Shown here one piece after another: positions 7,995 through 57,027 of a stretch of DNA of 64,000 nucleotides. The stretch covers positions 248,001 through 312,000 of the forward strand of contig JAACMV010000004.1 in NCBI GenBank assembly GCA_010909725.1. Direction: 5' to 3'. This stretch comes from Picochlorum sp. 'celeri' (Eukaryota; Chlorophyta; Trebouxiophyceae). A program made the translations under genes and the position numbers. How positions within the stretch are numbered: position 1 is the stretch's first letter; every line of letters starts with the position of its first letter. The notes under the pieces are model-generated. The model was not told the origin of the DNA. It worked only from the letters and a program-made list of their open reading frames with translations, and made no database searches.

Positions 7995-9198
7995 ATGGTT
8001 TCGATGCTCTGCAGGCCATCGATCAGCCTTTCGAGGCATCGAGCAATGAGATTTTGGCCACAAAACTCTCCGCATTCTTCTTCTTCTTACCCTCATCAGG
8101 TAAGAAGAACAACAACAGCAATCACTAGAGAAAACAAGAAGAGTCTTTTGATCGCTCGATCAGAGTCTGCGGATAGTCCACTGGTGGTACGGTATTGTTG
8201 TTGTTGGAGACTTGGTATTATTGATTTGGTGCTCAGAACATGGTGTGGTGTCAATCAATCATATGGTGCAGGAGGAGGCATCATCGTCAGAAAAGGTGGT
8301 CGGGTTTGTGAGTGCATTTTGGAAGTTTCTGAGACCCCATACTATCCGAGGGACTATTCTGGGGTCTCTCGCAGTGACGTCAAAAGCATTAATGGAGAAT
8401 CCAAATGCCATTGATTGGGGACTCGTTCCAAGAGCCATGCTGGGTGTCTTGGCATTGCTCTGCGGTAATGGATATATTGTAGGTATCAATCAAATATACG
8501 ATGTGGATATTGACGCTGTGAACAAGCCTTTTCTGCCAGTTGCAGCTGGGGAATTATCGGCTGTCAAGGCTTGGGTGATTTGTATTGTGTTGGCAGCGAC
8601 TGGACTGGGAATTACCACGTGTAATTTTGGATCATTGATTGCCAAATTGTATGCATTTGGCCTGTTTCTAGGAACCATATATTCTGTCCCACCATTCCGC
8701 CTGAAGAGGAGTGCGATTGCGGCCTTTGCTATTATTGCCACAGTGAGGGGTTTCCTGCTGAATTTCGGAGTCTACCATGCTACAAGAGCAGCTCTCGGCC
8801 TTCCGTTCGTGTGGAGTCCTCCTATTGCATTCATCACAGTCTTTGTGACAATCTTTGCCACGGTGATTGCCATTACAAAGGATCTGCCGGATGTGGAAGG
8901 AGACAGAAAGTTTGGTATTGACACCTTTGCGACACGAATGGGGGTCAGGAATATTGCCTTTCTTGGTTCAGGGTTGCTCATTGCAAACTATACCGGGGCT
9001 ATTGCGTTGGCAATGCGAATGCCAGCTGCATTCAATGCATCAATCATGATTCCATTCCATGCTGTGCTTGCATTGCTCCTGACATACAAGACGTTGAAAT
9101 TAGATGCAGCAAAGTATACAAAATCGGCTATTCAAGCATATTATAGGTTTATTTGGTACTTGTTTTATTCAGAATATGCAATTTTACCCTTCTTGTAA
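7995..9198 (+). CDS. HST: Homogentisate solanesyltransferase (plastoquinone-9 synthesis)
   Basis: UbiA-type membrane prenyltransferase that joins solanesyl diphosphate to homogentisate in the plastid, the committed step to plastoquinone. Exons 7995-8186 and 8272-9198 flank an 85-bp intron (GTACGG...GCAG), giving 372 residues. The first exon is rich in Ser, Arg and Pro with few acids, as in a plastid transit peptide. The two Asp-rich prenyl-diphosphate sites are seen: [14 protein letters not shown] at about 136 and [13 protein letters not shown] at about 267. Long stretches such as [13 protein letters not shown] and [19 protein letters not shown] fit HST better than tocopherol homogentisate phytyltransferase. 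Its last 15 bases overlap the end of the BIO3-BIO1 gene on the other strand. The start could also be a later Met in exon 1. Confidence 0.93.
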
Positions 9199-11364
9199 GA
9201 GGAGAACAGACTCGAGTTGTTGTAATAAATAATGACACGTGTCCTTGGTGGTGAATGGCGTCACCATGATGTATATGACGTCTCCCAGAGGTCGAGCATA
9301 AATGTTTCGTTCGAGCAATTTCTGAGCCAGGGCTGCAGCGGCGCCCGATTGATACCCAGAGTCGTCTGATTCAAGCTGTACAGAGACTACTGTGCCAAGT
9401 GAAAAAATCCCCTTGACACGAGAGAGATGCGATATCTTCTCCACTCGATCCTGATCCCACAACTCGATCAATCTATTGCACGAAGTCTCGCACTGTTTGG
9501 TACACGTGCCGTTTACTGGGGAGCATACGTTTGCGTTGGACAAGGGGTTGCCCATGGCTTGTAGAGAAAACTGGCCTGCAGCGCACCCGACAGGGTGCGC
9601 CGTGTATGAGTGTCCATGAAGGAGTGCTAGTGCCTTTGTGTCCCCCTGAAAGGCGTTGAATACATCTTCTGATGACAATGTGATGGACATTGGGACGACA
9701 CCTCCGGTCAAGAGTTTGGCGTAGCAGCCAATGTCTGGCGTGATGCCAAGCAACGATGTTGCCGCAGATGGAGCACCCAACCTCCAAATCCCGGTGAACA
9801 CTTCATCGACAATTAAAGGGATGTTTCTTTCTCTACAAACGCGTGCCATGGCGCGGTGAAATTCCGGATCAATCATGCGCATGCCACCTGCTCCTTGAAC
9901 AACAGGCTCAATAATGCATGCTCCCACACAGTGGTCTGGATGGGCTTTGGCATGTGCATCCAGTGACTCTCGAATGTAGACGTCATAGTCTTTAATATCG
10001 GTTTGAACGACCCATGCGCCATTTTTCATGGCCACAGTGGGTGGGTCCAGGAAGAGCCCTCGTCCCTCAAACCACGGAGTTTGCAGTCGTCCATTAAACA
10101 CACTGGGAGGTACTGCATCCATTGTTCCCAACGTATCGCCATGATATGCACCTTGGACTCCTAAGACGTGGAGTTTGACGTCATCGTCATGCAATATATT
10201 GTGATCCACCATGTATTTGCGAAATGCCATTTTAAGCGCCACCTCGACAGCAGTAGACCCATTATCGCTGAAGAATGCTCTGGATGCCCAACCCTTTCCA
10301 ACCTCACGAATCAACTGCTGAGCTACATCAAGGGCAGGTTTATGTATGTTTCTCGGGAAGATGACGTGGCCATACCGTCCAATGGCTCCAGCAACCTCTA
10401 GAGCCATGCCGGGCATGTGCTCAGCATCCATCCCTTGCGTCCACCAGCTCGCACAGCCATCATACACGGAGCGCAGCGTATGATTGTTGTTATTAGAATT
10501 CATTATAACCATATCTTCTCCAGCTCTAGAATCAATCACAGTGACATTGGCCCCGCTTGAAATCTCTTGATGCTGGGTAAAAGGCCACCAGATGGAATGC
10601 AGCGCGCGCTCTCCAGCCTGTTCCAACCATTCCCTATCCTGTTTGGCACAACGACGCAAATACGACTCCATATCCCGGAATGTATCCATAGTATCCACCA
10701 ACCATTGCTTCAAGTGTCTATCGATAATACCATCATCATTATAATTATTCTGGTCTGGTGGTGGCAAGCACGGCGACAATGGAAACACAGCCGCATCTAC
10801 ATGTTTTTCAATACTCTTGTAATTCTCCAAACCAGAATTCTCCACGATGGCAATCACAGGAATCGAATATCCTCGCAATTTAAGCATCTCGTATGACGAC
10901 AGTGTCGTCGAAATACCACCCAATTGACCATCCCCAACCAGCAACGCTGGGTACCTCAGTGGCCTCAGCAAGTCACACTGCAGCCTTCCACTCGGACCTG
11001 GACTTCCTGGTCCCCCAGCAGTTTCGAGCACTACTACATCAGCAGCCGAGTTTTCTTCCGCCACGCTCTGTCGAATAGCTGACACGACAGAGGCATCATC
11101 TGGTGGTGATGTTCCTGCAGCCAGATGTGGACTCACAGCATCCTTCCAGGCAAACAATGTCTTGGACACGAAAGAATCACCAAGCCTCCAGGCATCAACG
11201 ACACGAGATACGAGGCGAGCATCGCTATCTTCTGGATATCCCGTTTGGACCGGTTTCAAATACTGGACAGCCTGGTGCTCTCGCAACGCCGACAGGACCA
11301 GTCCAGATGACACCAACGTCTTCCCAACGTTGGTGTTTGCTCCCCAAGTTGTAACAATCCTCAT
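9184..11364 (-). CDS. BIO3-BIO1: Fused dethiobiotin synthetase - DAPA aminotransferase
   Basis: Bifunctional biotin enzyme, probably mitochondrial as in plants: the C-terminal half makes 7,8-diaminopelargonate from KAPA (PLP-dependent) and the N-terminal half closes the ureido ring to dethiobiotin. One intron-free ORF of 726 residues begins at ATG 11364. The BioD half has GANTNVGKT at 8-16, [22 protein letters not shown] and [10 protein letters not shown]. The BioA half starts near 265 (WWPFTQHQ) and contains [36 protein letters not shown] and YAKLLTGG with the PLP lysine near 551. The domain order matches the plant and algal fusion. An obvious N-terminal targeting peptide is absent from this start. 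It is divergent from BIO4 across 190 bp, which suggests shared control. Confidence 0.96.
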
Positions 11365-11554
11365 CCTTATCTAGTAGTAGTACATGTAGTTTTTTTCTGT
11401 TTCACCATTGATGATGAAATAAAAAATTGTCGCAAAAAGAGAAATAATAATGTGGGTGGTGGCGCCCTTGCCAAAATCAAGTTGATTTTTTTGATTTTAG
11501 AGATGTCAAACAATTTTTTTTTTTAAAAACATACATCTATCTACAATATGTAAT
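11365..11554. promoter_or_regulatory. Shared divergent promoter of BIO3-BIO1 and BIO4
   Basis: The 190 bp between the two start codons must hold both promoters and both 5' leaders. It is AT rich with T-runs at about 11387-11396 and 11513-11526. I recognise no specific factor site or riboswitch. Confidence 0.6.
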
Positions 11555-12751
11555 ATGGCCGGTAATCACTCGCATGATGATGATGATGGTAATCACAATT
11601 ATTCATGGGTCACGGCACGTCTGGAGGAATTGAATGCTCGGCATTTGCGACGACATCTAAACATAGTTCAACCCTTTCAGACAGACAACAGATCGTTTAA
11701 TAGTAATGATTATTTGGGATTGTCATCCCATCCTGCCGTGCGACAAGCTATGGCCAAAGTTGCCATGCAGTATGGCAATGGCCCAAGGTCTTCGGCTCTT
11801 GTGGCAGGATACACGCAGTATCATCGTGACTTGGAGACTCAGATATCTCAATTGAAAGAGACAGAGGAGGCGGTATTGTTTTCTTCGGGTTTCGCAGCGA
11901 ACGTGGGGCTGCTCTCTTCTTTGCTCAGTGAAGGAAACATTGATGTGTTTTCAGACGAGTTGAACCACGCATCCATTATTGATGGTATCCGTCTGGGAAA
12001 AGCGTACAACATGAATTCAGTACAGGTGCATGTGTATCGGCATAATGATATGGCGCATTTGGACGAATTATTATTATCACGTCGTAGGAGAAATAGGAGG
12101 AGACTCGTCGTCACAGATTCTCTCTTTAGCATGGATGGTGATTTCGCTCGTCTCCCCGATATTGTGCGATTAAAAAAAAAGCATGGTTTTCTTTTGATTA
12201 TTGATGAGGCTCATGCCACCCTGGTATGTGGGGAGCATGGAGGTGGTGCAGCAGAAATGTTTGGTGTGCAGGAGCACGTTGATCTCCATGTGGGGACACT
12301 CAGCAAAGCTGTCGGCAGCCAGGGAGGCTTTGTGGCGTGCAGTGCCTCGATGAAGAACTTTTTAGTGAATAAAGGCCGAACACTTGTGTTTTCAACGTCG
12401 CTACCAATACCCTGTGTTGCGAGTGCTCAGATGGGCATTGTGATTGGGCAAAGAGAGCCTTGGAGACGACGGCACCTAGAACAATTGACAAGTCGAATTC
12501 AGCAACGAATAGGAAGTGGTACAGCATCTCCAATTATTCCCATTGTGATTGGACCAGAGCAGCAAACATTGGAGATTGCAGATACCATGCAGAAAGATTA
12601 TGGTTTTATAATACCTGCCATCCGGCCTCCAACAGTGCCATCTGGCACCTCGAGGCTTCGGATATCATTGTCAGCGACACACAAGACATCTACAGTTGAT
12701 GAATTAATTGATGCGTTGATTGAGGCGACAAGGCCGCGTGGCAAATTGTAA
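11555..12751 (+). CDS. BIO4: KAPA synthase (8-amino-7-oxononanoate synthase)
   Basis: PLP enzyme of the alpha-oxoamine synthase family that condenses a pimeloyl thioester with alanine, the first committed step of biotin synthesis. Single-exon ORF of 398 residues from ATG 11555. Family motifs: NSNDYLGLSSHP, GNGPRSSALVAGYTQYH, FSSGFAANVGLLSS, DELNHASIIDGIRL, IIDEAHATLVCG and GTLSKAVGSQGGF with the PLP lysine at 251. The length is typical and all key residues are present. The C-terminus is Gly-Lys-Leu. From memory, a plant homologue ends Pro-Lys-Leu and is peroxisomal, so a PTS1-like signal is possible here, but glycine at -3 is not a standard PTS1. The His/Asp-rich N-terminus is not an obvious organelle presequence. 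Confidence 0.95.
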   Translation: MAGNHSHDDDDGNHNYSWVTARLEELNARHLRRHLNIVQPFQTDNRSFNSNDYLGLSSHPAVRQAMAKVAMQYGNGPRSSALVAGYTQYHRDLETQISQLKETEEAVLFSSGFAANVGLLSSLLSEGNIDVFSDELNHASIIDGIRLGKAYNMNSVQVHVYRHNDMAHLDELLLSRRRRNRRRLVVTDSLFSMDGDFARLPDIVRLKKKHGFLLIIDEAHATLVCGEHGGGAAEMFGVQEHVDLHVGTLSKAVGSQGGFVACSASMKNFLVNKGRTLVFSTSLPIPCVASAQMGIVIGQREPWRRRHLEQLTSRIQQRIGSGTASPIIPIVIGPEQQTLEIADTMQKDYGFIIPAIRPPTVPSGTSRLRISLSATHKTSTVDELIDALIEATRPRGKL

Positions 12752-17923: not shown

Positions 17924-19278
17924 GGTTCGTTCGGCAAAGAAAGAGAAAAAGAAAGCAAGAAAAACCCGAAAAGCACTCTATGCTATATCACCGTTGCCTC
18001 TGCATATCGACAATAGTAACATGTCTATAAATCGTTGTGAATTGGATAGAACAAGCCGCGACAAAGTGTTTGTGACAGGATTGTTGATTCGAGCTGATCG
18101 AGTACTAGATGTCGCTCGCAGCGGTTGAAACCGTTTGTAGTGATAAAAACGGGTTCCAGCCAAATATAAACACCAAAATTTCGTATCTATGTGATACTAA
18201 TGACATGCGATTGCACGTACAAGAGTTTCGGTTTGAAGTTGACTTTGCGTTCGACTACTCTGCTCTACTCTCAACACTTGAGAAGAAGAAAAGACAGTCG
18301 GTACCTAAACAGAGAATAGTTACTACTGTTGTTGGATATGTAATATGAATTGGACGGCTAAACCATGCTGGAGTGCCTCATGATGGCGGAGTTTTGCTGA
18401 TTGATTCTCGAATAGTCTGTCCTTCAAGGCGGGTAAATTCAAATTCGCGAATTCGATTGACACCCCCTGTCAAAGGCTCTTTTTAAAGGGATCGTGGGAA
18501 GCTTTCCCCGAGATGGCTGTGTGTATCCCATCAAAAGGAACATTTGACCGGAGATACGAAGATACGTTAGGAGATGTGAGACTGTCTTGGTCAAAATCGA
18601 CTTTTAATGCGACTACAGATGAATATAAGCGTACAGAAGAACAAAATAATGCAGAAAGATTTAAAAAAAAGGGTTTGGAGGAGGAAACAAGGCATTATGG
18701 AACATTGCAACAGCGATTCACGGACCTGACAGATGCTGGTGACCCAGTACAAAATGCAGTGTTTCCAAGTATCGAACGACCGGCGAGCGCCATGGCTTCA
18801 TAGATCTATTCTATGCGTCATACACCGAGTCTTTCAGTAAATTAGAGGAAATAACCCTCCAGAGCACCTGCATATCTCATGGTGCACAAGTGCATACTGT
18901 TGGTGTTGAGCCCATCCAGGAGGGTACAGTAGACAAATGAATTGCAAACAGGATACCTCGCAAGATGCTTTTGAAAATGTGCCCAACCAGCCGCAACGAA
19001 AATAACAAGTAGTGGAGGGCCGAAAGTGGCGATTTGTGAGTTGATTAGCTATCGTAAATAGACATTGGGTAAACTGATTTGTAGATTGGGAGAGCTTACT
19101 TGGATTGTAGATCTACAATTGCAAGAGTTAGTCAGTACCTAAACAGAGAGTTGCTGTTTAACTTGTAATACCGTGAGTGGACCAGACCGTCAGGGCGGGA
19201 TTAATCCGAGAACATCTCGAACATCTCTGTCATAAACAATTTTATCAGAGGTTTGTTCCTAATTTAGGACAAAAAAGA
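17924..19278. other. Accessory stretch without a firm gene
   Basis: Small plus-strand ORFs occur (ATG 17922, 18513), the first overlapping the ATG of the minus-strand orphan gene. Two related tracts reading GTACCTAAACAGAGA are found at about 18301 and 19135. Nothing here could be assigned to a family apart from the ORF listed separately. Confidence 0.4.
18513..18803 (+). CDS. Small hypothetical protein, 96 residues
   Basis: ATG at 18513 opens MAVCIPSKGTFDRRYEDTLG and runs 96 residues; charged middle part (YKRTEEQNNAERFKKKGLEEE), no membrane segment, no recognised domain. Kept because composition looks coding and it lies within the repeat-bracketed segment; it could be a chance ORF. Confidence 0.35.
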   Translation: MAVCIPSKGTFDRRYEDTLGDVRLSWSKSTFNATTDEYKRTEEQNNAERFKKKGLEEETRHYGTLQQRFTDLTDAGDPVQNAVFPSIERPASAMAS

Positions 19279-19306: not shown

Positions 19307-19406
19307 TGCTAAAGAGACATTATTCCACTAAACCACAGCCCCTTTGACCGGACGATATCGTCGATCAAATTGGAGCTGGGAAGAATCGAACTCCCGACCT
19401 TCTCTA
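19307..19406 (-). tRNA. Circularly permuted tRNA-Ala (anticodon AGC)
   Basis: On the minus strand the 3' half (19406-19371, 36 nt) precedes the 5' half (19342-19307, 36 nt), with a 28-nt spacer (19370-19343). The 3' half reads T38, AGAGA, AGGTC, T-arm GGGAG/TTCGATT/CTTCC, then CAGCTCC and discriminator A. The 5' half reads GGGGCTG, TG, a D-arm with TTTAGTGG, then TCTCT and loop TTAGCA. Placed in canonical order, the acceptor forms 7 pairs including G3-U70, the alanine identity pair; the anticodon stem TCTCT/AGAGA pairs fully; the anticodon is AGC. Only the D-stem is weak. Flanks TCCGT and ACGGA can pair outside the anticodon loop, giving a substrate like a splicing-endonuclease site. CCA is not encoded. 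A box and B box are both present, in reversed order. Confidence 0.88.
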
Positions 19407-19499
19407 TGTTATTCCGTTTTTTGATGACAATCAAAGTTTTCTTATTATAATATACAAACTAATCTCTTTTTCTTGTTTACATTAATTTAATTAAGGAGA

Positions 19500-20170
19500 A
19501 TTTGAGGACAAGGATGACCCATTTTTTTTTTTGAGCCGTGTTTTCTACACGCCAAGGCTCTGGACAGCGGATCCGACCGCCCCTTGGTGTGCTGAAGAAG
19601 CAAGAGAGTGAGAAAATCTGGGCCGACACAAAGTTGCTGCTTGCGTGGGCGGCCTTCTCGTGAGGAAACCCGGCTGCCTGTGCGACTGAGGAAGCTTGCA
19701 AGTGGTTCCTTCCTGATGACCCGTGCCTGTCAGGAGACAGAGCAGTGGCCGCCAGCTGGGTGTCCAGATACCATTCCAGGCATGTGAGGATTGCACTCAC
19801 TAAAAACTCACTCCCACACCTCGGGATGGGATCACCCAACCCCTTGGCGTCGACTGGTTGTTCTGGGCCTTCCAGACCAGTCCCCGCTGTCTCCGAGCTG
19901 TTCTGCCGCCTCGGCGACATGGGAGTGAACAGCCCCGAGCCTGGGGGCGGTGGTCCTTTCAGCAAAGAACTGCCTTACACTAAACGGTGCATTGGCTCTG
20001 GGACGGACCGGGGGTGACCTCTGTTTCTTCAAATATATATCTTTATAACGATACATTTCAATGAAACACAGAATACCGCATGGTTCCGACATTGGCACCA
20101 AGAAGAACATTCGGTCCAGGCACCTCTCCAGCCGTACGGCGACGGTGACACAATGAGAGCATTGGACCTT
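19500..20170. other. GC-rich island with a broken open frame
   Basis: This stretch is clearly richer in GC than its flanks. On the plus strand one frame is open from about 19541 to 20017 except for a single TGA at 19661, reading around it LLLAWAAFS and GNPAACATEEACKWF. A minus-strand frame (19965-19477) is also open, partly from GC content. No family is recognised; it may be a relic coding region. Confidence 0.35.
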
Positions 20171-23768: not shown

Positions 23769-24467
23769 CTAGTTATGAGACATCAACTCCGTTACGTGGA
23801 GGTAATGTGCCAATATCCACTGCTCTTTCCCAAAGACCAATCTGGTCCCGTTACGACGAGAGTTCAATCTGCGTGCAGATCCAGCCGGGGCATCCTTGTC
23901 AATAATGGACATGCCAGTCTCATCCACCTCAATGACAGTGCCATCCACAGTGTAGACAGTAGCACTAGTATTTCGCTGCGCCACAATCTTGGCCACTTTA
24001 TACAAAGTATCGCCCTCCTCGGAGGAAAGCACCAAGCTGTCAAAGCTTTCCAAGACAGATGGATTGGGATACTTGAACAACGAGTCAACTTCCATCTGCA
24101 GACGCAGTCCTCCAGTGGACATTGGCTGCTTCGTCGCGGTTGAGACCAGCACGCCGTTGTTATCGTTCACCTCCTGTGTGAGCTTCACGATTGCGTACAC
24201 CGTTCCGCACAGCGTGGCGATCAGGATGAGCACAGCTGCAACCAAGGCGATCAGGAAGTTGCGCATGAGCTTACGGTCAGATACAGCTCTCTCCGCGCTT
24301 CGCATCACCTCGAAAAGCTCGTCAATGGATAGAATTCCATCATTATTGACGTCGGCAGCCTGGATTCTGGCGGCCAGCTTTGGCGATATCGCCTCGCTGC
24401 GAAGCAGCTCCTGCACGTTCACCGAGGTCGTATCGCCCTTTGAGGGCATCACTGTTGGCAAAGACAT
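23769..24467 (-). CDS. EF-hand single-pass membrane protein, copy 1
   Basis: From ATG 24467 the protein is 232 residues. It has one canonical EF-hand loop DVNNDGILSIDE near residue 38, then a basic stretch and one strong membrane helix (FLIALVAAVLILIATLCGTVYAIV, about 68-91), then a mostly beta, Ser/Thr-rich domain ending LVFG and a copy-specific tail. Likely a calcium-binding membrane-anchored protein with the C-terminal domain on the far side. I do not recognise a named family. About 99% identical to copy 2 over an 855-bp block that includes the 5' leader. The open frame upstream of the ATG has no Met and is taken as leader. Confidence 0.7.
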   Translation of the reverse strand: MSLPTVMPSKGDTTSVNVQELLRSEAISPKLAARIQAADVNNDGILSIDELFEVMRSAERAVSDRKLMRNFLIALVAAVLILIATLCGTVYAIVKLTQEVNDNNGVLVSTATKQPMSTGGLRLQMEVDSLFKYPNPSVLESFDSLVLSSEEGDTLYKVAKIVAQRNTSATVYTVDGTVIEVDETGMSIIDKDAPAGSARRLNSRRNGTRLVFGKEQWILAHYLHVTELMSHN

Positions 24468-24681
24468 TGGCTTTACATTGTTAGTAGTTTCACTAAAGGG
24501 AGCATGTGAAGTGCGGTGCGTAAAGACACGACGCACTAGGGCAATTGCATCTGACCCCGGGGTCCCCAGATGGGGACTCTGTACAGAGTGCTGCGCTGCA
24601 AGTTGTGGGTTTACACCTAAATTTCGGATTCGACATATGTTGTGATGGTCACCAGCTGTCAAAGGTACCGGAATATGACTG
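23827..24681 (-). repeat. Duplicated block, copy 1 (855 bp)
   Basis: Aligns to 26253-27102 with about nine substitutions and one 5-bp deletion (GCGCT) by eye. It covers the coding region except the last residues and about 200 bp of leader. Confidence 0.9.
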
Positions 24682-26185
24682 TGAGGATATTGATTGACGT
24701 ATTTCTCCACCAGAGTGTACTACCAGAGTGTACCAGGAGCTACTACTATAGTACACCGAAACTGTCACAGATGCCACCTCTTACAGGGCTGTATGGTTTG
24801 AGGGCACTTTACAAGTAAAAATATTTTAGTTAGTGAATACGTGAAAGGCATATAAACCATTGAACTGATTTGGACACGATCGTGGAGGAAAGCTTTCTTT
24901 CGTATATCGGCATATTCACATGTTTCGTGCCTCTGTTGGCCAGAGGCATACCTGTGTGATGGTTCCATTGTGCGACTGTGCTGAGATGCGTCCCCATGGA
25001 GATCTGTTGCAGTCGATGAACCGTTCAGAGTACACAGTAGAAGGTATTTGTATGGATTTAGCCGTGCGTAAGTACTGCTCACTCACGCTACTAGGTGTAT
25101 CCAGATGCCTTTGGACCTGGCCTGCCTCTCCACATTGGTGCAGACATGTCGATACCCTCTGCCACGTGCTGGACAAGGAAGCTTCTGCGGGAGTTCTCTC
25201 GATTGCTGCTACCCAAATACAAGAAAATACACATGATATCTCGTTGCTGGAAGATGGAAAAGAAGGAGGGCCTCCAATATATTCTTTGCACACAGCCATG
25301 ATCCCTTCAGCAGGGTCACCTAATCAATAGATTTCCAAAAGTATCTCGTGTGCAGGAATTCAAAATGCAAACGATATGCCTGACATTGTATCTATATACA
25401 GCACATGACCAGGATTTTGGAATCATCTGGTGATGCAAATGAAGGAGAGAGGATTTGGCAAGTTCTGGGACCCAATGTGACACTGGTTGACAAGATGCTT
25501 GTACTGGAAGGAGAGGATGCATCAACCAGTCCACGAGAGCAAGAACAATCTACTGCGACGCAGCAAACACCACTGACTTCTGGCAATGTTTTGCCCTGTG
25601 CTTGTACACCATGAGGCCACCGCTCCGAGGTGATTGGGCGGCGCTGTTCATCATTGATAGCGCCGAGAAGGCATCTACAGGTCACAACTATCTTGTGCTC
25701 ACGTCAGACAAGGCTCTCATTCTAATACAGGGCGACAAGGTGTCATACAGGAAGGGTGGGGCCCACATTCACGTTAGTGATGAGCTCCACTCAGTGCTGT
25801 TGGACTCCATACGCCAATTCCCTCGATCAATGGTCGTTCAGTACACGTATAAGGCATCTCAAAATCCACTTCATCGATCATATAGCCCAGACAAGCACAT
25901 ATCCAAGATGAACTTGTCGAAACTGCTGAGTCACGCCATGGCATCACAACAGGACAACACAGTGGCACTGGTGTTTTGCTGCGCCACAATCTTGGCCACT
26001 TTGAGCTGTCAAAGCTTTCCAAGACAGATGGATTGGGATACTTATACAACGAGTCAACTCCCATCTGCAACCAAGGCGATCAGGAAGTTGCGCATGGGCT
26101 TGTGGTCAGATACAGCTCTCTCCTCGCTTCACATCACCTCAAAAAGCTCGTCAATGGATAAAATCCCATCATTGTTGACGTCGGT
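24468..26185. other. Inter-copy spacer with unresolved coding-like pieces
   Basis: Apart from the decayed third copy (25959-26185), plus-strand stretches at about 25090-25230 (YPDAFGPGLPLHIGADMSI) and 25611-25830 (RGDWAALFIIDSAEKAS) look coding but lie in different frames and lack clear splice links. They may be exons of an unrecognised gene or a decayed gene. No annotation beyond this is justified. Confidence 0.35.
25959..26185 (-). pseudogene. Decayed, internally deleted copy of the EF-hand membrane gene
   Basis: Pieces match copies 1 and 2 in order: the region around QRNTSATVY, then FDSL/SVLESFDS, then the EF-hand part. Two segments are missing; the second gap removes the coding sequence of the membrane helix and joins at CTGCA, which is present at both edges in the intact copies. 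Frame is lost after the first gap. Confidence 0.85.
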
Positions 26186-26893
26186 TCAATCACATCGGCG
26201 TACATCGCACTCGTATATTACGTAGAGGTGGCTTGCGTATAACCACTGATCATTCCCAAAGACCAATCTGGTCCCGTTACGACGAGAGTTCAACCTGCGT
26301 GCAGATCCAGCCGGGGCATCCTTGTCAATAATGGACATGCCAGTCTCATCCACCTCAATGACAGTGCCATCCACAGTGTAGACAGTGGCACTAGTATTTC
26401 GCTGCGCCACAATCTTGGCCACTTTATACAAAGTATCGCCCTCCTCGGAGGAAAGCACCAAGCTGTCAAAGCTTTCCAAGACAGATGGATTGGGATACTT
26501 GAACAACGAGTCAACTCCCATCTGCAGACGCAGTCCTCCAGTGGACATTGGCTGCTTCGTCGCGGTTGAGACCAGCACGCCGTTGTTATCGTTCACCTCC
26601 TGTGTGAGCTTCACGATTGCGTACACCGTCCCGCACAGCGTGGCGATCAGGATGAGCACAGCTGCAACCAAGGCGATCAGGAAGTTGCGCATGAGCTTAC
26701 GGTCAGATACAGCTCTCTCCTCGCTTCGCATCACCTCGAAAAGCTCGTCAATGGATAGAATTCCATCATTGTTGACGTCGGCAGCCTGGATTCTGGCGGC
26801 CAGCTTTGGCGATATCGCCTCGCTGCGAAGCAGCTCCTGCACGTTCACCGAGGTCGTATCGCCCTTTGAGGGCATCACTGTTGGCAAAGACAT
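26186..26893 (-). CDS. EF-hand single-pass membrane protein, copy 2
   Basis: From ATG 26893 the protein is 235 residues with the same order as copy 1: short N-terminus (MSLPTVMPSKGDTTS), EF-hand loop DVNNDGILSIDE, one membrane helix, and a C-terminal domain with TVYTVDGTVIEVDETG. Its last 25 residues differ from copy 1 because the duplicated block ends inside the reading frame and the stop lies in flanking DNA next to the pseudogene. Both copies keep all EF-hand ligands (D1, N3, D5, E12). Function unknown; calcium sensing at a membrane is the simplest reading. Confidence 0.7.
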   Translation of the reverse strand: MSLPTVMPSKGDTTSVNVQELLRSEAISPKLAARIQAADVNNDGILSIDELFEVMRSEERAVSDRKLMRNFLIALVAAVLILIATLCGTVYAIVKLTQEVNDNNGVLVSTATKQPMSTGGLRLQMGVDSLFKYPNPSVLESFDSLVLSSEEGDTLYKVAKIVAQRNTSATVYTVDGTVIEVDETGMSIIDKDAPAGSARRLNSRRNGTRLVFGNDQWLYASHLYVIYECDVRRCD

Positions 26894-27102
26894 TGGCTTT
26901 ACATTGTTAGTAGTTTCACTAAAGGGAGCATGTGAAGTGCGGTGCGTAAAGACACGACGCACTAGGGCAATTGCATCTGACCCCGGGGTCCCCAGATGGG
27001 GACTCTGTACAGAGTGCTGCAAGTTGTAGGTTTACACCTAAATTTCGGATTCGACATATGTTGTGATGGTCACCAGCTTTCAAAGGTACCGGAATATGAC
27101 TG
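26253..27102 (-). repeat. Duplicated block, copy 2 (850 bp)
   Basis: Partner of 23827-24681, same orientation. Divergence starts sharply on both sides. Confidence 0.9.
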
Positions 27103-29282: not shown

Positions 29283-30576
29283 ATGCAAGCATTGGTGAGG
29301 AAGACGGTTGGGCAGAGGGTGCTCGCAGCGACATGGGTACATGCAGGCATGGACTGTCGACTGCTGTCTTCAGGCAATGCTGTGATGAAGGCGGCAGAGG
29401 TATCAATGGTGGAAGATACCGTGTATCAGTCAGAGGAGCCGCGATGGTTGCGGGAATTGGGCACTGTTCGCAATGATTGGACGTGAGTCTATGTTGAGTA
29501 CTGCAGTATTTTTTCTTTCGATTGCTTTTTTTTTCAATATGCCACGAATAATCACATCTAACGATCAATTTACATATACATGTAGTCGAGAGGAAGTGAA
29601 GGAGGTGTATGAGAGCGGGTTTTTGGACCTGGTGCACCACGCGTCGTCAGTCCACCGTCAACACAATGACCCATCCATGGTACAGCGTTGCACATTGTTG
29701 AGTATCAAGACGGGAGGGTGTCCAGAGAATTGTAATTATTGTAGTCAGTCGAGTCATTGGAGTAAAGAGACTGGGACCAAGGCGGAAAAGTTGATGGATT
29801 TGGAAGATGTGTATCAGGCTGCGGTGCGGGCCAAGGAGGCTGGGAGTACACGGTTCTGTATGGGGGCGGCGTGGAGGGGTCCGTCTCAGGTGGGGAAGAG
29901 GCAGTGGGAGCGGGTGTTGGATGCTGTGAAGCGTATTCGTGCGTTGGATATGGAAGTGTGTACGACTCTTGGCATGTTGACACCAGAGCAGGCAAAAGAG
30001 TTGAGGGAGGCTGGTTTGACTGCGTATAATCACAATTTGGATACGTCTCCAGAGTATTATGAAAAGGTGACGACGACGAGAAAATATCAGGATAGATTGG
30101 ATACGATTGAGAGTGTTAGACAGGCTGGTATTTCCGTGTGTGCTGGAGGGATTATTGGGTTGGGAGAGAGCCACATGGACAGAGTGGGGTTGTTCCATCA
30201 GCTGGCCACGTTGCCTGCGCATCCCGAGTCTGTTCCCATTAATGCCTTGGTTGCGGTCAAGGGTACGCCGTTCCAAGATCACGAGGCGCCGTCTGGATTG
30301 GATATTGCGAGGTGTGTGGCGACAGCAAGGATTTTAATGCCAAGGACAGTGGTGCGATTGTCTGCCGGAAGAATGAATTTTTCATATTCGGATCAAGCCT
30401 TGTGCTTCTTGGCGGGAGCGAATTCTATTTTTGATGGAGATAAATTGCTGACGACGCCGAATAATGATAGGAATGAGGATTTGGAAATGTTTTCTCTTCT
30501 GGGGTTGAAGAGCAGGCCTGCCTTTGTGCCATATGCATCTGGACAAGAGAGCAGCAATGGCGCAACGTCTTCATAG
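29283..30576 (+). CDS. BIO2: Biotin synthase (radical SAM)
   Basis: Converts dethiobiotin to biotin by sulphur insertion, in mitochondria. Exons 29283-29482 and 29586-30576 flank a 103-bp intron (GTGAGT...GTAG); the join gives RNDWTREEVKEVYESG, matching the family. The protein is 396 residues. The 4Fe-4S SAM motif C-x3-C-x2-C is at 112, 116, 119 (CPENCNYCSQ). The 2Fe-2S ligands appear in RFCMGAAWR, EVCTTLGM and, later, VRLSAGR. The N-terminus (MQALVRKTVGQRVLAATW) is basic and amphipathic like a mitochondrial presequence. It is the last step of the pathway whose other steps are encoded at 9.2-12.8 kb. Confidence 0.96.
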
Positions 30577-42525: not shown

Positions 42526-45500
42526 TTACCAATATGTGTTTCTAAATACCCATCCCTTTGGATAGTTTCTAATAATCATCTTGCGAATCTCATCGTATAC
42601 AAAGATGAACATGGCGTATGGAACACCGATGAACATGTAGAGGACAAACAACGGGCGGGTTGTCCATACGATTCGCAGGAATGGGACATAGGAGATGAGG
42701 CAGACAAAGAGAATCATGGTGAAGAGACCAGCATTGAGCACTCTGTTTCGCAATCCTTGGGTGAAGAGAGATTCCTTTCTGGTTTTGCAGATGAGGAGAT
42801 CAGCAGTACGAGCCACCACGACAGCTGCAAAGTATGCTGTTTGACCAGTGTACAAGACACTCTTTTGGGAGTCGAGGTTGGCAAAGTACTGCACCTGTCC
42901 GTTCCACCAGTAGTAGGAGCCCTGTTCACCGTATTCTCCATCGTTGACCAAACCTCTTCCTGCAAAGCCGTATTGGTCGGCGTTTGGCAGGTTGCAGTAT
43001 TGGTCAAACATGTTGGCTTCTGCCCTGGAAAGATACAGGGCGTATGCTGCGTCGCCACCGTAGTTGAATGGATTGGTGGGGTCGACGACGCCAGCATTCA
43101 CTCGTCTGACAAATTCATCGTTTGCGGCAATAAAGCGGTCCTTGAGTTGATCTGATAATCCTGCGTACCAGGAGCATGTGCGTCCGCATGTTGCCTGAAT
43201 GGCCGTATCCTTGTTTCCAAAAGTGTTATCATCATAGGCAATGCCTCTGAAGCCATACTGGGTGAACTCAATGAAAGGATCTGCTGTTCCGTTGAACGGA
43301 ATAGGGCATCCTTCCTTGCAAAATTTGAATTCATCAGCGGCTTGTCCATACAGAGTAGTCTGTCCTTCAAACGTCTCCTGTGGCTCTTCACATCCAAAAT
43401 GGCAATCTGCTGCCCATAAATTTCCAGAGGCGGCAATTTGGGGCTTGCAGAGCAATGGTCCGGTTTCCCATGAGATTCCACGGCCAATCATATTGCCCCA
43501 TTCATATCCGTAATCGTTGAACACACTCATGAATGCGAGGAAACCAGCGCATGTTTGAATCAGCCCAATCTGGAAGTATGAGAAGGAAATCAATCGCCTG
43601 GAGACAAGTCTCTCCACATCTGGGTTTCTGGGAGGCCTATCCATAATATCAGCCTCCTTTGGTTCGTACGCCAGGGAAATAGCGGGAAGCATATCGCATC
43701 CCAAATCGATGGAGAGAATCAAAATGGTGGAGATGGCTGGTGGGAAGCTGAGCACGACAAACAGCAAGAATGGAATCTGTTCTGGGAATTTGGATGCAAG
43801 CGTGTATGCAATGGACTTTTTGAGATTGTCGAAAATTACTCGACCTTCTTCAACTCCATTGACAATGGATGCAAAATTATCATCCATGAGAATCATATCT
43901 GCTGCTTCCTTGGACACATCCTTTCCAGAAATACCCATGGCAATTCCCGTGTTGGCCTTTTTCAGGGCTGGGGCATCATTCACACCATCACCTGTGACGG
44001 CGACATTCTCTCCACGGCGTTGGCAGTTTTCTACAATGAGCAACTTGTGAGCTGGAGAGACACGAGCGAAAACAATCTGCTCGTGATCAAGAGCCCAGTC
44101 CCATTTGTTCTGCCGTTCCACTGGATCAGAAATTTCCATCCACTCTCTGATATCATCTCCCTTTACAACCAGAGCCTTTCCTGCATCCCATTTGTCCTGA
44201 TCAATGATGCCAACCTGTTTTGCAATGGCAAGAGCTGTGATCGGATGATCTCCAGTGACCATGTACACCTTGATGCGGGCACGTTTGCATTTTGCCACAG
44301 CTTCAGGAACACCCTCTCTTGGTGGATCAATGAGTGACATGAGTCCAACAAATGTAAGGTCCTCAGTTGGGAAATTTGGTTCTGGCTTGTTTGTAAATGC
44401 GTAATCCATAGGAAGATCGAGATTCTTCATGGCAAATCCAAGCACACGCTCTCCCATGGCTCCCAGGTTCTCATAGGCATCCTGATACTTTTTCCTCCAC
44501 TCATCCGTCATTGGAATCTCCTCACCATTGATCAAAATCTTGGTACATCTGTTGATGACTCGTTCTGGGGCACCCTTGAACACCATGAGAGGATTCTTGG
44601 CAGATGGATCCTCTGGCTTGTGGATGGAAAGCTGCCACTTGTTTGTTGAGTTGAATTTGATCTCATGCAACTTTGGGTTGGCAGCATGATACTCTGATAC
44701 ATCGCGTATCAACTGCACACACTTGATCAACGCACTCTCAGACGCATCTCCAGTGCACGTAAGTCCCAACAAGTTGAAGTCAGGAGACTGAACTTCCTCA
44801 GCGAGATTCAATGCCGGTTTATCCTCATCATCAGCATCTGTCAAAACAAATCGGGAGTTGTTACACAGGGTTGCAACCCTCTGCAACGCCTGCCAAGTTG
44901 GTGCTTGTGTATCATACTTTGGTCCTTTGATAACACCTGGCCTCATGGCTGCCTTCAACTGTGGAAGATTTCTTGCTGCAGGAACCGTCACCAATTGCCC
45001 ATCATACCATGCGTGCTGAACAGTCATTCTATTCTGCGTCAATGTACCAGTCTTATCCGATGCAATAACTGTGGTTGATCCAAGGTTTTCAACACTTGGC
45101 ATGCCCTTGACCAACACATTCTTGGCATACATGTGCTTGGCAGACAATGCCAAGGACACAGTCAGCGTGACAAGCAAACCTTCTGGCACTGTACCAACAA
45201 TAATACCAATAGCAAACACAATCATTTCGATTGCTGATGCTCCAGCCACAAAGATACCGATCAAAATAAAGGTAATACCGATCAAAATAGCAATCACTGA
45301 GATAATCTTGATGAAAATATCCACCTCAACCTGGAACTGTGTCGCCTCGTCATTACCAGACTCTGCTGCCAGACCAGCAATCTGTCCCATCACAGTTTTA
45401 TCACCTGTTCCAATGACAATACCACGTCCTGATCCACCAACAACAATAGTGGTATAGAACATGAGATTCTGTGCTTCCAAAGGAACCGTGACTGGTTTAC

Positions 45501-46333
45501 CATTGGGCCCAATCTGCAAATCAGGCTCTCTCTCCTGAGGCTCAGCCTCACCGGTCAATGAAGAATTATCCACTTTGATATCGTTTGCAATGACAACACG
45601 CATATCAGCTGGAACCTGATCTCCATCTCCAAACTCAACCACATCTCCAGGGACCAGTTCCTCTGCCTCAATAATACTAATGTTACCATCACGCAACACC
45701 TTGCACTTCTTGGGCACCAGCTTTTTGAACCCTTCCATCACAGAATCTGCCTTTGCTTCCGTCAAGTACGAGAATGTGGCAGAGATGAACACCACAAGAA
45801 ACAAGACAACACCCAAGTACAGATTTGTAGGATCTGATTGATCAATTCCATAGGCAACAAAACACAACACGCCACCAAACAGCAGCAGAATCATAAACAC
45901 ATTCGCATACTGCTCCAAATACTTGACCCACCAAGGAATCACCACGGGAGGTGTCAACCGATTCCAACCATACTTTTCCCTGTTCTGCAACACTTGAGCA
46001 GAACTCAAACCATTCTCAGGAGTCGACCCATAGTACTCATACACCTTCTCCGCTGGCCATGTATGCTCTGTAAAACCAATTTCCTGTCGAAGCTTTTCCG
46101 CTCGAGATGTATCCTTGGAAGACCTGCAATACCATGACACACAATCGTTTGAGGGTAGGGCAACACCACACATGGTCGTCTTAGGGTATTCCAGCAATAC
46201 AACCCTAGGCGTCCAAGCACCAAACATTCGCGTACTTTTTCCTAGACAGCGCATTTTTCAGCTTTTTTGACAAAGATTTTGCCACCTTTTGCTCCTCTGG
46301 GACATCTGTCCCGCCATTCTGCCCTTCACTCAT
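42526..46333 (-). CDS. Na+/K+-ATPase-type alpha subunit (P-type IIC)
   Basis: Plasma-membrane cation pump. Exons 46333-46236 and 46123-42526 join across a 112-bp intron (GTACGC...GCAG), giving 1231 residues starting MSEGQNGGTDVPEEQKVAKS. Motifs: SSLTGE, VGTVPEGLL in M4, SDKTGTLT with the phosphorylated Asp, KGAPER, MVTGDHP, TGDGVNDAP, M6 IDLGCDMLPAISLAYE. M5 reads YTLASKFPEQIPF: the glutamate is kept, but the position of animal Asn776 is Lys. The M7-M8 loop is greatly extended (about 215 residues, Cys-rich, with CHFGCEEP and TCGRTCSWY). From memory, some algal type IIC pumps also have long M7-M8 loops. No beta subunit is in the window. Confidence 0.95.
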
Positions 46334-53322: not shown

Positions 53323-54652
53323 ATGCGCGCGTCTACTCACAGAAAACTATGGAGGCCAAAGCCTCTACATGTCATTATTCTCTTCACGTTCTTGGCACAG
53401 CATGCTGCAGGAAAATCTAATCATAATACGGCCACAAAACATTCTTCGGATCTCACTAGTAAAGGACGAGAGTCAACCTTGGGGGGAATGTGCGTGGAGA
53501 GCACCATGCCTGACCAAGACACTCTTCGGACACTTCGAAGACAGTCCGTCAAATTCAACCAGAAGAAGAGGTAGGGGGTGAAAACACAGCATGACTTTAC
53601 TTGTTGACTTGATTTGAGTTCTGATTCCTGATAGGCATCAGATATGTGCTACTCATTATGGTTGATTCATCATTCATGTGTTGTCATGGTGCAGCATGTA
53701 CCGAGATGGGGACATCATTGCAGTGTACACCCTGGACAGGCCTGGGCATGGCAGTCTTGCTGGGTGTGCGGATGCGTGCCTTTTGAACTGGAGACTGACA
53801 GACGACGAGACCCAAGCACTGGACACAGACTGCTCAGCAAATGGAAACAGCCATTGTCCCATGACGACAGGGTTGATTGTTGCCGATAGAAAATGCGAGG
53901 CCTTCATGTTCAATCGGCTGACTGGTGTGTGTACTTTGCTGTCAGGGGAGGGATCGATGCGACTCACTGGTAGCAGCAATTTCTGGTCTGGCAAGCTGAT
54001 TTGCGACGACATGGGCAGTGTGGACGACTGGGCAGAAGGGGTGGTTAGTAGGCGCAGCCCTCCTCCTCCGCCACCACCACCGCCACCAAGTCCACTCCTG
54101 ACAACATCTGGCTCGTTGAGAGGAGATGCAACATATGTGATTGATAATACTGTGCAATTGACAAGAGATGCTACATCGCTACAAGGATTAGTATATTGGG
54201 AGGGTGTTTTGGCCTACTCTTGGGAGGCATCGTTTGAGTTCAAGGCAGGACCCAAGACAACGAACGGGGCTGACGCAGTATGGTTCTTTGCATACCGAGA
54301 GACGAATGATTTGCACGATGAAGGCCACGCTACCACGGGATATAATTTCGTTGCCGATGAATATCAGAATGAGTACCAATTATTTGCTCCAGGGTTGTCA
54401 ACTGTTGTCTCACCTCCTATTGGAATATACCTGGGCGATGATACATGGAGAACTATGGAAATAACCTTTTCAAGCGATGGCACTACTGATACTATCGTCA
54501 TGAAAGTTGACGGGTCTCAGGTAATCACTGAATCACATCAAGCAAACTCTGCTTTGAAGTATCTACAGCCAACCTACTATGGTTTGGGAGGACGAACAGG
54601 TGGACTGTCAAACAATCATTACGTCAGAAACTTCCAGATAGTCAGAACATGA
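53323..54652 (+). CDS. Secreted PAN-like / lectin-like protein, copy 1
   Basis: Exons 53323-53570 and 53695-54652 flank a 124-bp intron; 401 residues. Signal peptide (LHVIILFTFLAQHAAGKS), then a Ser/Thr-rich stretch, a Cys-rich PAN/apple-like domain (about 84-190, with CADACLLNW, CEAFMFN and GVCTLLSGEG), a run of about ten prolines, and a beta-sandwich domain (about 220-400) resembling L-type (legume-like) lectins: WEASFEFKAG, GADAVWFFAY, YQLFAPG, YGLGGRTGGLSNN. The PAN plus Pro-rich plus lectin layout suits a cell-wall or surface recognition protein. Sugar specificity is unknown. Tandem paralogue follows at 55.7 kb. Confidence 0.8.
53380..54060 (+). repeat. Near-identical block, lectin gene copy 1
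   Basis: 681 bp match 55740-56420 with a single difference (54022 G versus A at 56382), including the whole intron. Identity stops abruptly in the signal-peptide codons and in the proline codons. Confidence 0.95.
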
Positions 54653-55673: not shown

Positions 55674-57027
55674 ATGCGCGTCACTACTCTGAGGAGGACG
55701 ATATGGAGGCCAAGACCTCAGCATTTGTTTGTTCCCGTTCTCTTCACGTTCTTGGCACAGCATGCTGCAGGAAAATCTAATCATAATACGGCCACAAAAC
55801 ATTCTTCGGATCTCACTAGTAAAGGACGAGAGTCAACCTTGGGGGGAATGTGCGTGGAGAGCACCATGCCTGACCAAGACACTCTTCGGACACTTCGAAG
55901 ACAGTCCGTCAAATTCAACCAGAAGAAGAGGTAGGGGGTGAAAACACAGCATGACTTTACTTGTTGACTTGATTTGAGTTCTGATTCCTGATAGGCATCA
56001 GATATGTGCTACTCATTATGGTTGATTCATCATTCATGTGTTGTCATGGTGCAGCATGTACCGAGATGGGGACATCATTGCAGTGTACACCCTGGACAGG
56101 CCTGGGCATGGCAGTCTTGCTGGGTGTGCGGATGCGTGCCTTTTGAACTGGAGACTGACAGACGACGAGACCCAAGCACTGGACACAGACTGCTCAGCAA
56201 ATGGAAACAGCCATTGTCCCATGACGACAGGGTTGATTGTTGCCGATAGAAAATGCGAGGCCTTCATGTTCAATCGGCTGACTGGTGTGTGTACTTTGCT
56301 GTCAGGGGAGGGATCGATGCGACTCACTGGTAGCAGCAATTTCTGGTCTGGCAAGCTGATTTGCGACGACATGGGCAGTGTAGACGACTGGGCAGAAGGG
56401 GTGGTTAGTAGGCGCAGCCCTCCTCCGCCACCACCACCTCCACCAAGTCCTCTATTGACAACGTCTGGGACGTTGTACAAGAATGCCACGTATATTGATG
56501 ATAATACTGTGCAGTTGACCCAAGATGTTCTGTCAGTGCAAGGTTTAGTGTACTGGGAGGGTGTTTTGGGCTACTCTTGGGAGGCATCGTTTCAGTTCAA
56601 GGCAAATGGATCTCAATTTTACAACGGGGCTGATGCATTATGGTTTTTCGCGTACCGAGAAACAATAGAGGGTACACCACTTGAAGTGTCTGCCAACACA
56701 GGCTACAACTTTGCTGCCATTGAATTTGGCACTGATAGGTACCAACTATTTGCTCGCGACCTTCCTACGACGAGAACCGATGCGGGAGTCAAACTGGATG
56801 ATGGTACATGGAGGACCATGGAAATAACCTTTTCAAGCGATGGCACTACTGATACTATCACCATGACTGTTGACGGGTCTCAGGTAATCACTCAATCACA
56901 TGTGGCAAACCCTGCTTTGAAGTATCTACAGCCAACCTATTATGGTTTGGGAGGACGGACAGGTGGACTCTCAAACAATCATTATGTCAGAAACTTTGAC
57001 ATATCCAGGACATCTGACCCTGCCTAG
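55674..57027 (+). CDS. Secreted PAN-like / lectin-like protein, copy 2
   Basis: Exons 55674-55930 and 56055-57027; 409 residues. Same domain order as copy 1. The signal peptide start differs (MRVTTLRRTIWRPRPQ), residues from LFTFLAQHAAG through the PAN-like domain are essentially identical, the proline run is one shorter, and the lectin-like domain is clearly diverged (GTLYKNATYIDDNTVQ, QLFARDLPTTRTD, extended tail). Ligand-facing loops are where most changes occur. This pattern suggests homogenisation of the 5' part with free divergence of the binding domain. Confidence 0.8.
55740..56420 (+). repeat. Near-identical block, lectin gene copy 2
   Basis: Partner of 53380-54060, offset 2360 bp, same orientation. 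Confidence 0.95.

Follow-up and report, generated by a model that had tools for sequence, protein, structure and literature searches.

The question raised by this locus is whether two tRNA-like halves lying in swapped order on one strand of Picochlorum DNA make up a working tRNA gene. We studied them in a window, i.e., the whole stretch of 64,000 nt that was analysed, which is C4:248001-312000 of the assembly. The assembly had 27.4 Mb in 30 contigs and most of its features occurred at paired contigs, as in a phased diploid; the accessible part of PMC12633428 describes Picochlorum assemblies as diploid. The best protein matches of the window were to Picochlorum and other chlorophytes, and a prokaryotic or viral origin was rejected: the P-type ATPase encoded at 42526-46254 shared 98% identity over 97% with a Picochlorum sp. 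BPE23 protein, with chlorophytes as the next named matches.

Anatomy and detection of the locus

The 3' half of the tRNA-Ala(AGC) (36 nt, 19406-19371) was located ahead of its 5' half (36 nt, 19342-19307), both on the minus strand and separated by a spacer of 28 nt. Reading along this strand, the order was a leader ending in AAAACGGAATAACA, the 3' half TAGAGAAGGTCGGGAGTTCGATTCTTCCCAGCTCCA, the spacer, the 5' half GGGGCTGTGGTTTAGTGGAATAATGTCTCTTTAGCA and a trailer beginning with GTCCGTATTTAG. The features were the following:

19434-19454 (-): upstream element TATATTATAATAAG plus AAAACTT, a variant of an AAAATTC-like element that precedes many tRNA genes of this alga, both standard and permuted; this motif was picked after the sequences had been inspected
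19407-19417 (-): leader side of the predicted bulge-helix-bulge; ACGGA for the outer helix, ATAA for the central helix (3/4 pairs with loop 32-35), CA as the bulge before U38
19371-19406 (-): tRNA-Ala(AGC) positions 38-73, the 3' half; it supplies the 3' strand of the anticodon stem, the variable loop, a T arm that includes the B box, the 3' strand of the acceptor and the discriminator A73
19343-19370 (-): spacer of 28 nt, with no T run of four or more; in the predicted fold it extends the acceptor stem as a hairpin
19307-19342 (-): tRNA-Ala(AGC) positions 1-37, the 5' half; it supplies the 5' strand of the acceptor, a D arm that includes the A box, the 5' strand of the anticodon stem and the AGC anticodon
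19301-19306 (-): trailer side of the predicted bulge-helix-bulge; G as the third bulge base, TCCGT for the outer helix, 5/5 pairs with ACGGA
19271-19276 (-): T6 run, by its sequence a likely RNA polymerase III terminator

Joined in the order 5' half, 3' half, the pieces gave a 72-nt tRNA that ARAGORN called tRNA-Ala(agc). As the first-pass annotation had described for a circularly permuted tRNA-Ala(AGC), the two 36-nt pieces formed a full acceptor stem (7/7 pairs, with G3-U70), a paired anticodon stem (5/5), an anticodon loop with U33 and A37 (UUAGCA/U, with anticodon AGC and the junction A37/U38), a 5-nt variable loop (AGGUC) and a standard T arm (stem 5/5, one pair G-U), and the identification held down to the A37-U38 junction. 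The D arm had 3/4 pairs, U13-U22 being unpaired. The remaining features were those of an ordinary eukaryotic tRNA, namely T8, G15 with C48, G18G19, T33 and TTC; the 3' half stopped at A73, CCA not being encoded. Swapped halves on one strand, a short intervening sequence and a 37/38 junction correspond to a type II permuted gene. A TATA-like element, by consensus only, was present upstream (TATATTATAATAAG at 19454-19441), T6 lay downstream (19276-19271), and no T run separated the halves.

Many tRNA genes of this alga are swapped likewise (see below), so ordinary gene finders miss them, as had been anticipated for permuted genes: ARAGORN reported no tRNA in the linear 64-kb window, also with introns of up to 3 kb allowed, and neither did Rfam at gathering scores. 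At a lax threshold the Rfam matches in the window were weak: permuted tmRNA with 22.5 bits (cut-off 47), tmRNA with 16.2, tRNA with 16.1 (cut-off 29) and U3 with 12.6. A rotated-tRNA model (R1) gave the locus 92.5 bits, a circular score, as the model included this very gene. For a second covariance model (R2), seven standard tRNAs from this alga's genome, none of them Ala, were rotated at 37/38. Up to E = 10, R2 had a single match in the window, 19406-19307, with 56.9 bits and an E-value of 3.3e-16 that is rough because the calibration was short. This was the rotated-sequence scan suggested with the original call, and an Ala-free model matching solely this place in 64 kb bears out the judgement that chance is unlikely; the arrangement is not random. 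A generic T-loop-to-A-box pattern had two overlapping matches in the window, both of them in the tRNA-Ala(AGC) gene, against 0.9 expected, which alone is not significant.

As a foreign control we used at least 123 loci with Ala acceptor strands in permuted order (3 viral from IMG/VR and at least 120 genomic from GTDB). R2 gave 23.2 bits or less in 122 of the 123 loci listed; at E <= 0.01 there were matches in five of these 123, up to 23.2 bits, plus one of 45.9. The exception, a Bacteroidales contig (L225), held two complete standard tRNA-Ala genes in tandem. A standard tRNA-Ala tandem thus scores with R2, and a tandem pair is therefore a false positive that needs exclusion. No permuted relative was found among the foreign loci listed (IMG/VR and GTDB contigs). 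In the alga's own loci with standard tRNAs, most pairs being represented by one locus, R2 reached at most 31.4 bits. ARAGORN detected no standard tRNA anywhere in the window, the 3 kb surrounding the gene, the six 3-kb Ala loci, the Leu(AAG) locus (L056) or the small permuted loci (see below); the latter had at least 43 nt before the 3' half, room for an intronless standard 5' half, and only 17-45 nt after the 5' half.

tRNA genes in the rest of the genome

A 29-mer of the Ala T arm and acceptor, allowing up to three mismatches, was found at six places in the whole 27.4-Mb assembly: C4:267371 (the window gene), C30:266435, C4:770719, C30:784131, C10:935332 and C16:932347. All six were permuted at 37/38 with complete anticodon stems, two each for AGC, UGC and CGC. 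An RF00005 search had 34 matches over the cut-off, from which 30 loci were typed, none of them Ala; it scored 63 of 866 candidates, and because of this a divergent standard tRNA-Ala could have been missed. The counter-case put forward in the first-pass annotation, an intact standard tRNA-Ala(AGC) elsewhere, thus did not appear at the six Ala places or at the 30 typed loci. ARAGORN named the standard loci as Lys, Ile, Asn, Val(tac), Glu, Met, Asp, Pro, Phe, Trp, Arg and Gly; where they bear introns, manual reading made the Arg/Gly pair look like Leu(CAA) and one Trp pair like Arg(CCG). No standard gene for Ala, Thr, Tyr or Cys was seen among the genes examined (30 typed standard loci). An extra B-box-like GGTCCCGGGTTCAAA abutted the 5' end of the standard tRNA-Asn or tRNA-Phe in 4/4 loci (L011, L012, L027 and L030; ~1485-1500, gene strand). 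It places a B box ahead of the A box, as in permuted genes, and is perhaps a relict 3' half or part of a promoter.

Sequence patterns revealed further permuted genes. The GGTC pattern had 69 matches against 31 in the reversed control, and 16 places examined included seven permuted genes, Arg(CCU), Tyr(GUA), Val(CAC), Val(AAC), Thr(UGU), Met(CAU) and Thr(CGU), two doubtful identical copies and seven that were not permuted. The GGTTCGAAYCC pattern had 23 matches against 30 in the control, yet four of the eight places examined were permuted genes: Cys(GCA), Leu(CAG), whose locus sequence ends after position 36, Ser(GCU) and Leu(UAA). Looser patterns yielded one permuted locus in 60, Leu(AAG). Loose B-box patterns were swamped, at 333 matches (322 in the reversed control) and 416 (317), and four further patterns, one of them off by one base for its purpose, had 18, 87, 24 and 71 matches against 23, 72, 15 and 81. 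At least 15 permuted isoacceptors, identified by sequence with the anticodons read by eye, were thus present in the alga, all with a 37/38 junction. The Rfam tRNA cut-off was reached by none of the 12 small loci scanned (11 permuted and L107).

This catalogue is a lower bound, as 63 of 866 RF00005 candidates were scored. Lying outside the count are the candidates C8:999133/C17:1016717, C3:405267/C23:404199, C14:22025/C18:27092, C4:133303/C30:138661 and C18:706211; three of the four over-cut-off RF00005 matches with no assigned locus were also outside the counts. Left out of the permuted counts were L105, which has a Pro-like T arm, and the doubtful L107/L109. The last two (C8:59296-59461 and C8:537567-537732) were identical, scored 36.4 bits as permuted, and have an upstream AAAATTC and two broken pairs in a possible Gly(CCC).

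Sister contigs provided a second AGC gene for comparison. The loci at C4:267371 (-) and C30:266435 (+) are oppositely oriented and their matching stretches are 77-84% alike, hence we take them as apparent alleles with a local inversion. The C30 gene differs from the window gene at 17 of the 72 tRNA positions, and all five anticodon-stem pairs are intact in both. Five pairs changed on both sides and kept their pairing, 27-43, 28-42 and 31-39 in the anticodon stem, 52-62 and 11-24; in the D stem of the C30 gene, pair 12-23 is broken (A-C) and pair 13-22 is gained. The fold of the AGC tRNA has been kept up by compensatory change in the sister gene. Among permuted Ala genes, divergence between sister contigs was 17/72 (AGC) and 8/72 (CGC), chiefly in the D arm (C4/C30 pair; L002/L003; L004/L005); most standard tRNA pairs compared between sister contigs were identical or nearly so. 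In a set of 14 class I permuted genes, standard pairs filled 98.3% of cells (63.6% when shuffled), and 19 of the 21 pairs had both-side changes. The AGC pair is cleaner evidence than this set, because pairing had been part of how the 14 genes were found and differences between isoacceptors are to be expected.

Junction, flanking signals and upstream repeat

Leaders played no part in finding the permuted genes. Therein we paired loop 32-35 against the four leader bases preceding the last two, the central helix of a bulge-helix-bulge. In the 17 genes, 54 of 68 cells were paired, against 41.1 for shuffled leaders, and none of 10000 shuffles reached 54. With one gene per isoacceptor (14 genes) the count was 44/56 against 32.8, reached in 1 of 20000 shuffles, and other registers gave 0.32-0.50. 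Leaders paired better with their own anticodon loops than swapped leaders did. Pairing was weak in Ser(GCU) (1/4) and Cys(GCA) (2/4). For the window gene the predicted central helix had 3/4 pairs and the outer helix 5/5, and in this model leader and trailer can form a 3-4-3 bulge-helix-bulge at 37/38, whose cut sites would fall at the inferred ends. In other permuted genes the outer helix, complete in the window gene, was variable; in the C30 AGC gene, it had 2/5 pairs, out of register because one trailer base is missing.

The predicted unconstrained fold of the window precursor was without the native anticodon and T stems, at -43.8 kcal/mol against -39.4 with the native stems enforced, a cost of 4.4. 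Counting a stem as held with at least four pairs (for the acceptor, at least six of seven), 15 of the 17 precursors held the acceptor stem in their predicted unconstrained folds, 9 held the T stem and 5 the anticodon stem. The spacers of the 17 genes were 11-48 nt long.

Of 21 upstream stretches of 100 nt, 15 from standard and 6 from permuted genes, 12 contained the motif AAATTC, chosen after inspection; the expectation was 0.9. All six Ala genes had AAAAYTY 26-36 nt before the 3' half, and a looser form of it was found in 12/17 permuted genes, some of them with only 43 nt of upstream sequence. T runs of five or more followed 14 of the 17 permuted genes, the remaining three having 19-23 nt of sequence; such runs occur in 6.6% of background 60-nt windows. 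A scan for bacterial-consensus promoters and terminators gave three promoter-like matches on the other strand and no terminator-like site. The permuted Ala(AGC) (L001) and Leu(AAG) (L056) genes had in common a trailer stretch, TTAGAACATTAAA...GTTC, which hints at a common origin or a shared end signal.

Regarding the processing machinery, tRNA_int_endo domains are encoded in the genome at a C7/C24 pair and by a second gene with seven copies, and a B-block TFIIIC domain at a C7/C24 pair. The seven copies of the splicing-endonuclease-domain gene (G000) were at C10:613187, C16:614070, C21:81237, C25:30222, C9:1564, C12:1564 and C26:1564; the last three are at the same place near contig starts, which may reflect an amplified gene or an assembly effect.

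A 502-nt repeat ending in poly(A) was located upstream of the tRNA-Ala(AGC) gene in the same direction, at 20023-19522 (-), with its core at 19533-19600. Copies or pieces of it, in the same direction and 61-128 bp before the gene, were present at 11/36 tRNA loci against 1/56 other loci (60 control loci minus four that bear tRNAs), a Fisher p of 1e-4 in which alleles are not independent. The repeat-bearing tRNA loci comprised 4/6 permuted Ala and 7/30 standard ones, alleles counted separately. No coding domain was found in the ORF across the repeat, which looks like a retroelement end settling upstream of tRNA genes. Protection from mobile elements is one reason suggested for tRNA permutation (PMC3978253, section 9); the permuted genes here are not exempt from upstream insertion.

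Readings of the locus and known permuted tRNA genes

The locus is very probably a working nuclear Picochlorum tRNA-Ala(AGC) gene, circularly permuted and of type II (37/38), whose expression we infer. By analogy with other algae, RNA polymerase III would produce a single transcript of leader, 3' half, spacer, 5' half and trailer, ending at the T run. Leader and trailer would fold with the anticodon loop into the bulge-helix-bulge, and the tRNA-splicing endonuclease would cut after A37 and before U38. A ligase would then join A37 to U38, giving a circular RNA with the spacer spanning the acceptor stem, and RNase P and tRNase Z would excise the spacer. CCA would be added, A34 deaminated to inosine and the tRNA presumably aminoacylated. 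This maturation route is biochemically established in Cyanidioschyzon merolae and partly in prasinophytes (PMC3978253, section 6).

Three other readings were weighed. The locus might be what is left of two standard tRNA-Ala genes in tandem, or of a tRNA-derived repeat, after loss of the outer halves, and yield no tRNA; the Bacteroidales tandem, at 45.9 bits, indicates that the arrangement can arise from tandem genes, and a repeat sits just upstream. We nevertheless regard this as improbable: the sister gene has compensatory both-side changes, anticodon stems are complete across the swapped halves in 17/17 permuted genes, the leader is matched to the anticodon loop, and no standard Ala gene was seen with the 29-mer in the assembly or among the 30 typed RF00005 loci. 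Less probable still is a split tRNA whose halves are transcribed separately and joined in trans, as separate halves with pairing flanks might suggest, since 28 nt free of T runs separate them on the same strand, and spacers of 11-48 nt are kept in 17 genes. A permuted tmRNA fragment, which would likewise be of alanine type and have an acceptor-stem G-U pair, was rejected as scarcely credible: the Rfam model (RF04321) matched 19395-19336 at 22.5 bits, far under its gathering score of 47, and the locus has a D arm and an anticodon arm with AGC, its sister genes carrying UGC, CGC and other anticodons.

Permuted tRNA genes are a known kind; a 2014 review counted 34 in seven organisms, with a maximum of 11 per genome (PMC3978253). 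The hosts listed in the first-pass annotation (a red alga, prasinophytes and a chlorarachniophyte nucleomorph) appear in its table, but the list omitted the archaeon Thermofilum pendens (PMC3978253, section 4) and, from the accessible part of PMC12636532, Auxenochlorella. Genes of C. merolae (PMC3978253, section 4) resemble those described here in having the 3' half upstream of the 5' half, a TATA-like element, a T run and a bulge-helix-bulge at the junction, as well as spacers of 7-74 nt, some 37/38 junctions and no or few standard genes per anticodon. Unlike Picochlorum, C. merolae has 11 permuted genes, with junctions at 20/21, 37/38, 50/51 and 59/60, and the only Ala gene of the 2014 table is its Ala(TGC), with a 59/60 junction instead of 37/38. 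Its permuted genes have been explained by a TFIIIC-free system lacking TFC1 and TFC3 (PMC3978253, section 5); these two subunits were not found in C. merolae, whereas Picochlorum has the B-block TFIIIC domain. Ostreococcus, Micromonas and the Bigelowiella nucleomorph (PMC3978253) share the green lineage, a 37/38 junction in nearly all genes and spacers of 5-64 nt; in contrast, each of their genomes has 2 to 6 permuted genes, largely for Ser, Leu, Cys and initiator Met, with no Ala listed. Auxenochlorella UTEX 250-A, of a different genus, is likewise a trebouxiophyte with a small diploid genome in which, according to the accessible part of PMC12636532, the standard tRNA search was incomplete because genes are permuted. 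T. pendens has swapped halves as here, but with a 59/60 junction, spacers of 1 and 7 nt, introns and only two genes (PMC3978253).

In the accessible part of PMC11092101, tRNAs of Picochlorum SENEW3 were annotated with tRNAscan-SE and the word "permuted" is absent. Picochlorum is a genus for which we found no report of permuted tRNA genes in the accessible open-licence literature, an earlier report elsewhere being possible, and they are unusually numerous there. Standard-search tRNA lists of such genomes likely miss essential genes, and from the same part of PMC11092101 Picochlorum genomes have been published with ordinary tRNA finders.

We also considered a wider reading, whose parts, taken together, we hold to be about evenly balanced between right and wrong. 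Swapped order would be a main architecture of Picochlorum nuclear tRNA genes; permuted genes alone would decode Ala and, as far as the evidence goes, Thr, Tyr and Cys; transcription would proceed via a common upstream element and a T run, the reversed A and B boxes being tolerated despite a B-box-binding TFIIIC domain; one repeat would settle upstream of permuted and standard genes alike, against permutation as a shield; and permuted Ala genes of sister chromosomes would diverge far while both-side stem changes preserve the fold. At least 15 permuted isoacceptors in a fast-growing alga make several open questions testable: what keeps permuted genes in a genome, how A and B boxes in swapped order are read by RNA polymerase III, in what way a eukaryotic endonuclease deals with such genes and whether they give protection from tRNA-gene-targeting elements.

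Two other features of the window deserve mention. Biotin genes are clustered (9184-12751 and 29473-30576): a bioA fusion, whose N-terminal part resembles dethiobiotin synthetase by eye, adjoins bioF, and bioB is 17 kb off. Near-identical duplicated genes occur at 23769-24710 and 26186-27022 (-) and at 53678-54652 and 56038-57027 (+), one pair with a weak EF-hand match and one with weak legume-lectin-like matches and a proline run.
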